Below are positions 20,707-24,221 of a stretch of 64,000 nt of DNA, one piece after another. The notes beneath the pieces are model-generated. The model was given only the letters and a program-made list of their open reading frames with translations. It was not told the DNA's origin and searched no databases. The translations under genes and the position numbers were made by a program. How positions within the stretch are numbered: position 1 is the first letter of the stretch; the number at the start of each line of letters is the position of its first letter. The DNA is taken from positions 558,001 to 622,000 of the forward strand of contig NZ_SETE01000001.1 in the NCBI RefSeq assembly GCF_004152935.1. Direction: 5' to 3'. Source of the DNA: Brumimicrobium glaciale. GTDB taxonomy: Bacteria; Bacteroidota; Bacteroidia; Flavobacteriales_D; Crocinitomicaceae.

Positions 20707-22170
20707 TTATAGTTTAAAATGAATCTCCTTCGACAACTTCAACTCTTCTGGCTCCACCTTTGGCGTATATCCAAACAAGCGCATAAACTTAATCGCTTTA
20801 GCGACACGATCTGGCACATCACTGTCCCAATTTTCATCATCTTCATGACGTGTAATTTTTGCTAAAACGTCATCAGCGTTGATGTTTAATAAACTATAAT
20901 CGAACTGAGAAAGTGCTTCAATTTTTTCGTTGTCAATCATGTAAGTAAGCAATCCTTTTAAATGATTTGGAACAATAACATCCTTAAATTCATACAATTC
21001 TCCATTATTGTAATTGATTGCTGGATAAATGTACATCTTTGCATTTCTTCCAAATCCCTTTCCGAAAGCTTCAAGTAAACCACCATTTAGGTGCGTGTAA
21101 TATTGCTCATCGAAAATATTGTGGATATTGTAAATTCCTAAAATGATTCCCATTTTATATCCTTTGGTGATATCACTTAAATAATCTACCATTTCATAAT
21201 AGCGCAGATAATTTGAAATCATTACAGTATAACCCAAAGCTCCTAAAAGCTCTGCTCGGTCAACAAAATCCATATCCGAGATTTGTCCGCCAGAAGTTAA
21301 ATCACGCAATGTCAATTCAAAAACCTCTCTAACATCTTTTTTCTGAACTCCTTCTTCCTCGTAGAATTTTCCTCGGGCACTGTTCAACATGTCAATATGC
21401 ACCTTAGTAACGGGTCTAAATCGTCCACGCATTAGCAGAATATTCTTCTTGTATAATTTACTCGCAGGCTGAAGAACTTTACCTGTTTGATCAAACATTG
21501 TAGCTTCAGTAATTCCTCTTTTTACAAGATTAAGCGCTAAGATTCTATTGTCTATTTGTTCAAAGTCTGGACCTTCAACATGCAACATGTCAATTTCAAT
21601 TCTGTCTTTTGGTAAATGATGGACTAAACTATTGATGAAATAATCTAACTCTCCAGTCGCATGAAAATAAGCTGCATAAATCAAATTAACACCTAAAATC
21701 CCTAAAGCTTCTTGTTGCGCTCTGTTGTTATGATCGTGCATTTTAACATGCAAAATGATATGATTTGGTGGAGTGTTTGGATTAATTTGAAATCTCAAAC
21801 CTACCCAACCTTGACCTTGATTTGTTTTGTGGTAATTTAATGACTCTACGGTATTGCAAAATGAGAAGAATCGCGTATGTTCTTTTCGAGAATCTAAACT
21901 AGTCGTCACCATTTCATACTCTTTTTTGAGCATGGTTAACAACCTTTCCTCACTGACATAACGTTTCGCTTTTCCGTAAATACTATCAGACACTTTCATG
22001 TCATAAGCAGAACTCGCAAAGGCAATTGTTCCCGAGCTTCCTCCAGCCCTAAAAAAGTTTGCTGCAACCTCTTGACCAGCGCCTATTTCAGAAAAGGAAC
22101 CATAAATATCTGAGTTCAGATTTATCTTTAATGCTTTTTCTTCTGTTGTGAGTCTTCTCCGGTCTTCCAT
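20707..22170 (-). CDS. Conserved protein with nucleotidyltransferase-like motif, function uncertain
   Basis: 487 residues, no signal peptide or membrane helix, cytoplasmic. Relatives of this size in Bacteroidota are, as I recall, sometimes labelled nicotinate/nicotinamide-nucleotide adenylyltransferase. The only support here is LLMRGRFRPVTKVHIDMLNSA (near residue 250), which resembles the G-x-F-x-P...H-x-G-H signature of that superfamily but lacks the second His. Other marked stretches are HVKMHDHNNRAQQEALGILGVNLIYAA and NPNTPPNHIILHVKMHD. It stands alone between repeats and the cytochrome peroxidase gene. I do not assign a reaction. Confidence 0.7.
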   Translation of the reverse strand: MEDRRRLTTEEKALKINLNSDIYGSFSEIGAGQEVAANFFRAGGSSGTIAFASSAYDMKVSDSIYGKAKRYVSEERLLTMLKKEYEMVTTSLDSRKEHTRFFSFCNTVESLNYHKTNQGQGWVGLRFQINPNTPPNHIILHVKMHDHNNRAQQEALGILGVNLIYAAYFHATGELDYFINSLVHHLPKDRIEIDMLHVEGPDFEQIDNRILALNLVKRGITEATMFDQTGKVLQPASKLYKKNILLMRGRFRPVTKVHIDMLNSARGKFYEEEGVQKKDVREVFELTLRDLTSGGQISDMDFVDRAELLGALGYTVMISNYLRYYEMVDYLSDITKGYKMGIILGIYNIHNIFDEQYYTHLNGGLLEAFGKGFGRNAKMYIYPAINYNNGELYEFKDVIVPNHLKGLLTYMIDNEKIEALSQFDYSLLNINADDVLAKITRHEDDENWDSDVPDRVAKAIKFMRLFGYTPKVEPEELKLSKEIHFKL

Positions 22171-22257: not shown

Positions 22258-23340
22258 TCAGTGTGAGCTAGGTTTTTTGAATTTTGGGTTGTTCAAAAAC
22301 TTATGATCAGTAAATGTTTTTAAGAAAGTTTTTATCAATTGATGTTCCTGAGCATCCAGTTGAACACCACCTTGGTGAGCGAATTCTATCATCGGGTCAA
22401 TGGTCGGACTTTCCACGATTCCAAAGGAATAATGGTTGATTACTTCATCTAAATTTGAAAATCTTCCGTCGTGCATGTAAGGTGCTGTGAATTCAATATT
22501 TCTTAAACTGGGAACTTTAAATTTCCCTTGATCGTTAGTATTCCCTGTGACTTTCATTCTTCCAATATCTGAAAAATTATCATCCAAACCATTGTTTGAA
22601 AACAAACCTTGAACTTCCATAAGCGGTCCATCATGACAATGCAAACAATCTCCATTTGTTAAGCTGAAGAACAAATCCATTCCTCCCCATTCTTCATTCG
22701 TGATTTGGGTGTAAAGATTCTGCTCAAATGCATTCAAAGGTAGGTTGTTTCGGTATTTGTACATCACATCATATTTTGATTGACTCGAGATAAGCGTTCT
22801 TAAAAACTGGGCAATAGCTTTAGAGATATGAGTAGAATCAAAATCTACAACTTCAAAAACACGGTAGAAATCATTTTGATATCCTTCAATTGCATTTAGT
22901 TTTTGTGCTGTAGCATCCCAACTTTGATTCATTTCAATTGGATCTCTAACCGGATGCAAAACTTGCTCTTCAAGTGTTTCTGCTCGACCATCCCAAAAGT
23001 AAGCACTTTGCCAACCTAAATTAACCAATGACATCGATTGACGAACGCCGATTGTTCCATTTACTCCGCTTGAAAATTGATTAGGATCAGAAAAACCATT
23101 GGCTTGATTGTGACATGAAGCGCAAGAAATAGAATTGTCGAGACTTAAACGTGTGTCATAAAAAAGCCTTCTTCCTAGTTCAACTCCCTCCACTGACATA
23201 GGATTGTCTTCTGGAATTGGCATCGCTGGAAAATGACTTGGAATTTCAAGTTGATAAGGAGTTATAGACATATCGACTTCATTCTTCTTACAAGAAAAGA
23301 ACAAGATTGAAATAAATATGAATATTATCTTCTTTTTCAT
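22258..23340 (-). CDS. Di-heme cytochrome c peroxidase / MauG-MbnH family lipoprotein
   Basis: 360 residues. Lipoprotein signal ends at Cys17 (SILFFSC). Two c-type heme sites are present: CASCH at 73-77 and CLHCH at 232-236, with FWDGRAETLEEQ and APYMHDGRFSNLDEV typical of the family. Anchored in the periplasm, it would use peroxide to oxidise a partner. The gene directly upstream on the same strand encodes an MbnP-type protein, the known substrate of MbnH in methanotrophs, so substrate oxidation rather than simple peroxide removal is plausible (inference). Confidence 0.88.
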   Translation of the reverse strand: MKKKIIFIFISILFFSCKKNEVDMSITPYQLEIPSHFPAMPIPEDNPMSVEGVELGRRLFYDTRLSLDNSISCASCHNQANGFSDPNQFSSGVNGTIGVRQSMSLVNLGWQSAYFWDGRAETLEEQVLHPVRDPIEMNQSWDATAQKLNAIEGYQNDFYRVFEVVDFDSTHISKAIAQFLRTLISSQSKYDVMYKYRNNLPLNAFEQNLYTQITNEEWGGMDLFFSLTNGDCLHCHDGPLMEVQGLFSNNGLDDNFSDIGRMKVTGNTNDQGKFKVPSLRNIEFTAPYMHDGRFSNLDEVINHYSFGIVESPTIDPMIEFAHQGGVQLDAQEHQLIKTFLKTFTDHKFLNNPKFKKPSSH

Positions 23341-23348
23341 ACTTCTAT

Positions 23349-23475
23349 TAATGTTTAACTTTTTCTAATGTATAATTATTAAGGTTTAACGTGGTTAGCG
23401 CTGGACTTTTCCACAATTTTAACGCAGTTAAAATTCAATATCCACGCGCGTTAAACATTAATAATTAAACCTTAC
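23349..23475. repeat. Inverted repeats between the peroxidase and MbnP genes
   Basis: TAATGTTTAAC (23349-23359) and its exact complement GTTAAACATTA (23450-23460) face each other; a second pair TAATTATTAAGGTTTAAC (23373-23390) and the 23450-23475 region also match. It includes the CGCGCGTTAAACATTA word shared with 12222. On the mRNA it could form a stem-loop between the two cistrons. Confidence 0.5.
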
Positions 23476-24221
23476 TTACTTAACGCTTTCACGAAGTTAT
23501 TTATTACTTTTTCGCTTAAAGCAATTTGCCCTGGATTTGTGTGCGAAATTCGTTCTGTTTTGATGTCAATATCTTCTGTTTCACCATCAAATATTTTATA
23601 CAAATCCAGTTGAATATTGGTTTCAAATAATTGACTGTTTACTTTCATCCAATTTAAACCTTGAAGACTAAAAGACCTCAATAAATCATCATTTCCAATA
23701 TGATAAGCGAAATTCGTCATCTCAGAACCATCTTGCAATGCAGAAGTATCTGCTTTCCCTTCAATCATCACAAAAATATAACCTGTATTCCATCCCCAAT
23801 GCATATCTCCAGAATTTAGAATAAACAAAGGATCATCGGCATCTCTAGCAGAAGGATCTTCATGATTTTGTGTTGCGTCAACTCCAATATTTGCAGTTAT
23901 AGAAGTGAATTCAGTATAATTCCCAACGCCTTCCCAAAGCAAACGTTTGTCCTTTTCAAATTTATAAACGCCAGATTGAAAAAGCTGTTTTCCGTTATCT
24001 TTGAAATTGGTCATGATAATATTCAACTTTGTAAATTCAATTGTATATCCTTCTTGTGTTGTGTAAGTCTGATTAAATTCCATCGGAACACCCTGATAAT
24101 TGGGGATAATGTTTACACGTGCTTTTAATTCCATTTCCTCTGGAGAGACTTCTTTTGGTTGCTTGTTGTTACAGGAATACATTAAGCCAGCGAAAAAGAG
24201 AAGTAGTAAAAGTTTTTTCAT
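23472..24221 (-). CDS. MbnP-like periplasmic copper-binding lipoprotein
   Basis: 249 residues with a lipoprotein signal to Cys17 (FFAGLMYSC). The mature domain contains the family stretch NSGDMHWGWNTGYIFVMIEGK (His141, Trp142, Trp144) and NFAYHIGND (His174). In the methanotroph MbnP, a Trp is converted to kynurenine by its partner MbnH and helps bind copper(I) together with His residues; those Trp/His residues seem to have counterparts here. The partner-like di-heme enzyme follows at 22258-23340. No methanobactin genes are nearby. Family call from memory of Bacteroidota MbnP annotations. Confidence 0.75.
   Translation of the reverse strand: MKKLLLLLFFAGLMYSCNNKQPKEVSPEEMELKARVNIIPNYQGVPMEFNQTYTTQEGYTIEFTKLNIIMTNFKDNGKQLFQSGVYKFEKDKRLLWEGVGNYTEFTSITANIGVDATQNHEDPSARDADDPLFILNSGDMHWGWNTGYIFVMIEGKADTSALQDGSEMTNFAYHIGNDDLLRSFSLQGLNWMKVNSQLFETNIQLDLYKIFDGETEDIDIKTERISHTNPGQIALSEKVINNFVKALSK

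Follow-up and report, generated by a model that had tools for sequence, protein, structure and literature searches.

A conserved MbnP/MbnH-like lipoprotein pair with a putative kynurenine-type copper site in Brumimicrobium glaciale

The window analysed here is a stretch of 64,000 nucleotides from the genome of Brumimicrobium glaciale (contig NZ_SETE01000001.1, positions 558,001 to 622,000). It contains two neighbouring genes on the minus strand, the upstream one for a protein of the MbnP family and the downstream one for a diheme protein of the MbnH/MauG type, with 131 bp between them. The features of this locus are listed below in window coordinates.

23472..24221, minus strand: MbnP-family lipoprotein gene (249 aa), product a proposed kynurenine-dependent Cu(I)-binding protein
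22258..23340, minus strand: MbnH/MauG-type diheme lipoprotein gene (360 aa), product a proposed Trp-oxidising enzyme with MbnP as its substrate
23790..23804, minus strand: codons of Met140-His141-Trp142-Gly143-Trp144, including the WxW motif; Trp142 is the proposed kynurenine precursor and Met140 a proposed Cu ligand
23700..23702, minus strand: codon of His174 (in YHIG), a proposed Cu ligand present in 10/10 and 81/81 aligned sequences
24171..24173, minus strand: codon of the MbnP lipobox Cys17, present in 81/81 sequences
23110..23124, minus strand: first heme site, CASCH, residues 73-77 of the diheme protein
22633..22647, minus strand: second heme site, CLHCH (diheme protein, residues 232-236)
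22993..22995, minus strand: codon of Trp116, in the alignment column of the MauG inter-heme Trp93; 81/81 sequences
22429..22431, minus strand: codon of Tyr304, in the alignment column of the MauG axial Tyr294; 78/78 sequences that reach this position, with a gap in 3/81
23290..23292, minus strand: codon of the diheme-protein lipobox Cys17, present in 81/81 sequences
23341..23471, minus strand: 131-bp spacer, which contains a dispersed palindromic repeat and does not belong to the conserved pair

The pair had been proposed in a sequence-only reading of the window, and it was confirmed. Both open reading frames lie on the minus strand where they had been placed, the two heme motifs named there are present, the MbnP motifs HWGW and YHIG correspond to residues 141-144 and 173-176, and the numbering of Trp142 and Trp144 is right. 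The same reading had taken both proteins for lipoproteins, as the lipobox Cys17 seen in each of them predicts. Conservation was followed in a set of 81 sequences, gathered with the pattern MHW[GSD]WN[PT]G, which found 166 loci; the best 80 of them were examined and the window was added. Cys17 is kept in 81/81 MbnPs and 81/81 enzymes and is preceded by Ser, Ala or Gly in the former and by Ser or Ala in the latter (81 of each). The nearest named relatives belong to other Brumimicrobium species, the MbnP of B. oceani being 84% identical, and Brumimicrobium and near genera are presumably heterotrophs.

The upstream gene product matches PF20243 with 80 bits (E 2.8e-22), well above the gathering cut-off of 27 bits. 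Its AlphaFold2 model, with a mean pLDDT of 91.3, superposes on the solved MbnP of Methylosinus trichosporium (7l6g) over 197 aligned residues with a Z score of 16.4 and an rmsd of 3.2, and the second-ranked structure reaches a Z of only 3.7. Foldseek also retrieved 7l6g (E 7.7e-6). In the same way, a profile of 47 MbnPs of the clade aligned with a Methylocystis MbnP across the WxW motif (probability 86%, E 5e-6). No PDB match was returned by phmmer or by a profile of six Bacteroidota MbnPs, and the solved relative was reached via a Methylocystis MbnP and by fold comparison. Superposition on known structures had been proposed as a check of the sequence-only reading, and for MbnP the modelled fold bears it out. 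By Pfam and by predicted fold, the protein encoded at 23472-24221 is an MbnP.

The NCBI models are stricter, and as scored by them neither protein of the window is a member. The upstream protein scores 32.2 bits against TIGR04052, the equivalog of the copper-binding MbnP, for which the curated cut-off is 140 bits, and no match above this cut-off was found in 21 sampled genomes of the phylum. Another Bacteroidota pair (L011) and a Deinococcus pair likewise fall under both NCBI cut-offs. In addition, the only cysteine of the window MbnP is the lipobox Cys17, and the four-Cys motif, from which the proteobacterial family took its name and which figures in the molecule name of 7l6g, is absent. Fewer than four cysteines follow the lipobox in 79/81 MbnPs of the clade; for comparison, two Methylocystis MbnPs contain six cysteines each, that of Paracoccus six, that of Pseudoalteromonas seven and that of Deinococcus none. 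These differences from known pairs, namely the sub-cut-off scores and the missing four-Cys motif, are modest.

The residues expected at a copper site were looked for in an alignment of 10 MbnPs, comprising the window protein and nine others from Bacteroidota, Deinococcus, Alpha- and Gammaproteobacteria, two of which come from annotated methanobactin operons of Methylocystis. Beyond Met1 and glycines, the positions invariant in 10/10 are Asn119, Met140, Trp142, Trp144 and His174. The WxW motif of the TIGR04052 family is present as W142-G-W144, and the predicted copper-site Met and His, M140 and H174, occur in all ten proteins. The MbnP of strain OB3b is reported to bind Cu(I) through a His, a Met and a water molecule close to a kynurenine, for which the first of the two WxW tryptophans is the source (Manesis et al. 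2021). As far as residues can be matched in an alignment, Met140, Trp142 and His174 would fit such a site.

The diheme enzyme might nevertheless oxidise its partner to something other than kynurenine, such as a hydroxytryptophan or a Trp cross-link, or attack another residue, and the MbnP could then hold another metal or take part in electron transfer. The Trp is preceded by His in the window protein and by Ala in its Methylocystis counterparts, 81/81 sequences have His227 and Asp122, and MauG makes a cross-link (PMC3912023), which indicates that this class of enzyme is versatile. Against this stand the Met, the first Trp and the His expected at the copper site, none of which is missing, and a modelled fold that is that of MbnP as judged by the 7l6g match; a different product or residue is regarded as unlikely.

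A related proposal concerned the copper site itself. His174, His227, Asn119 and Asp122 do not vary in the set of 81 (81/81); neither does His141, yet it is part of the search pattern by which these sequences were selected. It was considered that MbnPs of the MHWGW type from flavobacteria have an altered, extended copper site, marked by His141, His227 and the lack of the four-Cys motif, with both partners tethered. Across the order, position 141 is His in 35/86 MbnPs and otherwise mostly Tyr or Phe, and position 227 is His in 65/86, so that neither residue marks the clade alone; both occur in several MbnP types of the order. Since His141 also belonged to the search pattern and served as a basis for choosing sequences, a clade-specific site built on the two invariant histidines is weakened, and the extended site is regarded as rather doubtful. 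If true, the MHWGW-type MbnPs would represent a new type of copper site with a protein-derived cofactor, other ligands and perhaps a redox function.

The downstream gene product displays two CxxCH heme sites and an MbnP neighbour, as MbnH does. It matches PF03150 (CCP_MauG) with 189 bits (E 1.1e-55). Its best NCBIfam match is TIGR04039 (MbnH) at 230.2 bits, under the cut-off of 362.85; against TIGR03791 (MauG) it scores 151 bits, under a cut-off of 443.85. The best PDB match is 6e1c (E 7.3e-45), which we take to be the MbnH of M. trichosporium OB3b. Placement of the first gene in another family, a possibility raised along with the sequence-only reading, was searched for in both genes with a negative outcome: the upstream gene falls under PF20243 and the enzyme lies closest to MbnH.

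Catalytic residues of the enzyme were compared by alignment with the annotated MauG of Methylobacterium, whose columns were assigned by counting. Trp116, Gln126, Pro130, Glu136 and Tyr304 fall in the columns of MauG Trp93, Gln103, Pro107, Glu113 and Tyr294. The first four are kept in 81/81 sequences and Tyr304 in all 78 that reach there. In this alignment, the enzyme keeps the inter-heme Trp, the distal Gln, Pro and Glu and the axial Tyr of MauG. In MbnH, the axial ligand of the six-coordinate heme is a Tyr, as in MauG; the high-potential heme of classical bacterial cytochrome c peroxidases has a Met in that role. Tyr304, the putative axial ligand, is shared with the Methylocystis enzymes and sits in the MauG Tyr column of an alignment that includes no classical peroxidases through that region. 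Among the MauG residues, Trp93 is named in PMC6405878, and Pro107, Glu113 and Tyr294 appear in titles of its reference list. For the enzyme, AlphaFold2 gave a low-confidence model (pLDDT 70.7). The genome encodes a second CCP_MauG protein (L144), which adjoins no MbnP and in which, by eye, a Tyr likewise stands where the window enzyme has Tyr304.

The structures ranked next to 6e1c carry the names of di-heme or cytochrome c peroxidases, and they would agree with a plain H2O2-reducing cytochrome c peroxidase accompanied by an MbnP that acts as electron donor or accessory lipoprotein and has no kynurenine. Several observations speak against such a peroxidase: the best NCBIfam match is the MbnH model, Tyr304 aligns with the axial Tyr of MauG (a Tyr also found in BthA, according to PMC6405878), and none of the best 80 of 166 loci has this type of MbnP without the enzyme. 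A role of this kind appears improbable.

The two genes are closely linked in the clade. In all 80 of these best loci out of 166, the enzyme gene directly follows the MbnP gene; the median gap is -1 bp, gaps of -1 or -4 bp predominate, and the genes overlap in 55/80. A broader view was obtained from the order to which B. glaciale belongs, where PF20243 is present in 56/59 genomes, its own included. From 113 PF20243 places, 80 stretches were taken, which together with the window provided 86 MbnP reading frames. A diheme gene on the same strand lies at most 400 bp downstream in 68 of the 86. Among these 68 enzyme-linked MbnPs, Trp142 is found in 68, Met140 in 62, Trp144 in 64, His174 in 67 and the full set of four in 57, one of the four being missing in the other 11, which counts against the proposed site. 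Trp142 persists in 68/68, whereas four have lost the second Trp and six the Met, as would fit the first Trp as the substrate. In the 18 other MbnPs, all four residues are kept in nine and Trp142 in 15.

Four enzyme-linked MbnPs (L032, L037, L040 and L064) retain the Met, the first Trp and the His and have lost the second Trp, the motif reading MEWP or MIWP. In some clusters, a single MbnP gene or a tandem of two is followed by two diheme genes side by side (L040, L047, L095, L097, L099, L102, L103, L104, L105 and L108), possibly with one enzyme for each MbnP or with a maturation in two steps.

Partner fidelity was examined with 43 pairs from 18 genomes that each have at least two. Distances between paralogous MbnPs correlate with those between their true partners (r 0.57). 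When partners were shuffled within genomes the correlation dropped to 0.03 +/- 0.06, and 0 of 2000 shuffles reached 0.57. Each paralogous pair is thus inherited as a unit, which in itself does not demonstrate contact between the partners. An association between an intact site and the presence of the enzyme was also noticed, with 63/74 intact sites in MbnPs that have an enzyme in the stretch and 3/12 in those that do not (Fisher p 5e-5). A tree-based test with five independent pairs on supported branches revealed no trend, the site going the same way as the enzyme in 0.3 and the opposite way in 0.4 of them on average, and because of this result the association was discounted and dropped as evidence.

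The spacer between the two genes has 24 matches in its own genome, itself included, the other matches covering parts only, and its palindromic repeat folds with a z of -3.0. Two close relatives (G003 and G004) have different inserts at the same position and keep the pair. A regulatory role of the 131 bp was ruled out by the genome-wide recurrence of its parts and by the lack of conservation in relatives. The separation of the genes by a dispersed repeat, where 55/80 relatives show overlap, might bring to mind a decayed or non-functional remnant, but both reading frames are intact with all site residues in place and the two relatives with other inserts keep the pair too, so that decay can hardly be entertained.

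Around the pair, no copper gene was recognised, three neighbours having been scanned with profiles and the others by eye. Downstream, a gene for a conserved 487-aa protein (20707-22170) matches nothing in Pfam or NCBIfam. It follows the pair in 15/81 loci but was discarded as a linked part, as it occurs in 48/59 genomes, its own among them, and in many of these lies on a different contig from the MbnP.

Elsewhere in the order, MbnPs recurrently neighbour genes for a protein of about 130 aa with the motif C-x-N-x(3)-P-x(3)-C-x-G-K-C-x-L (14/25) and for one of about 310 aa with CDxC (15/20). Both occur together in 19/81 loci, including L042, L044, L047, L048 and L049, and are present in 9/12 loci where the MbnP has no enzyme. 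One representative of each was searched and had no Pfam or NCBIfam match; the two genes are possibly an uncharacterised metal cassette. Another type of MbnP pair adjoins a YHYH-domain protein (L055, L058, L066, L073, L079, L093, L096, L106 and L107), which has a secretion tail in one representative. In parallel, public plasmid records were found to label a diheme MbnH gene as 'methanobactin export MATE transporter MbnM' (for example L134:4908-6068). The product of that L134 gene scores 494 bits against TIGR04039, and the label is apparently a misannotation.

The closest characterised counterpart is the MbnP/MbnH pair of M. trichosporium OB3b. It shares with the window pair the MbnP fold, an adjacent diheme enzyme of the MauG type, a WxW motif whose first Trp has a Met at the second position ahead of it, and an HxG further along, and the order MbnP then MbnH is also that of two Methylocystis operons. 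The window pair differs in the lipobox on both proteins, in the absence of the four-Cys motif, in a His instead of an Ala before the Trp and in its scores under the TIGR04052 and TIGR04039 cut-offs. In the genome of B. glaciale, a search for MbnB (PF05114) gave 0 matches, while the same search was positive in 2/14 control genomes; PF02461, for the particulate methane monooxygenase, had no match in this genome nor in any of the 14 controls, a result that is no evidence for the absence of that enzyme.

Adjacent MbnP/MbnH pairs in stretches free of methanobactin biosynthesis genes are also found in Pseudoalteromonas, Paracoccus and Deinococcus. The Deinococcus pair lies beside CopC/CopD and the Paracoccus pair beside PCu(A)C/SCO, neighbours that support a copper role for such pairs, in contrast to the window pair with its lack of recognised copper neighbours. 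The Pseudoalteromonas pair has no recognised copper neighbour either and, unlike the window pair, exceeds both NCBI cut-offs. Stretches from Persicobacter, Hymenobacter and Photobacterium were set aside in this comparison.

More distant parallels are provided by CorA/CorB and MopE/SACCP of gammaproteobacterial methanotrophs. According to PMC3912023, these surface copper proteins have a kynurenine-assisted Cu(I) site and adjoin a diheme peroxidase-like gene, CorA being co-transcribed with its diheme gene. Their copper ligands are different, with two His and a water, and according to PMC3621798 MopE and CorA have no marked sequence similarity to MbnP. MauG, which serves in tryptophan tryptophylquinone biosynthesis, has in common with the window enzyme the two c-hemes and the columns of Trp93, Gln103, Pro107, Glu113 and Tyr294; it differs in that the window enzyme attains 151 bits where TIGR03791 sets its cut-off at 444.

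The sequence-only reading had presented the pair as an occurrence outside methanotrophs. The pair is real there, and its occurrence is not new in principle because PMC3621798, a 2013 study of methanobactin genome mining, already reports that such pairs, defined by TIGRFAM models, extend in conserved form well past the bacteria that produce methanobactin. PMC9426467 likewise reports that other copper operons contain MbnPH-like genes. Among the literature matches listed, from a search with most subscription journals outside its coverage, no title or abstract dealt with this pair in Bacteroidota.

Taken as a whole, the pair is real and conserved, and it is almost certainly MbnP/MbnH-like. By analogy with the characterised relatives, the two genes probably form a single unit made of an MbnP and its dedicated diheme maturase, which would convert Trp142 to kynurenine and thereby equip the MbnP to bind one Cu(I) for copper handling. 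Both proteins, given their lipoboxes, would be exported and lipid-anchored. Peroxide or O2 would activate the diheme enzyme to a high-valent state, as in MauG, and the activated enzyme, touching MbnP, would oxidise the first WxW tryptophan, Trp142, and so produce kynurenine. MbnP altered in this way would hold one Cu(I), liganded by Met140 and His174 in the vicinity of the kynurenine, and the holo-protein may serve in copper capture or delivery in the periplasm or at the cell surface of a heterotroph.

The finding would extend kynurenine-type copper pairs to flavobacteria that showed no MbnB, in a group where the family is common (56/59 genomes). Being small, cysteine-poor and closely linked, these pairs would make it possible to test cleanly whether every dedicated diheme enzyme installs kynurenine in its MbnP partner, and the MbnPs that lack the second Trp (MEWP or MIWP) would be a natural test of which Trp matters.
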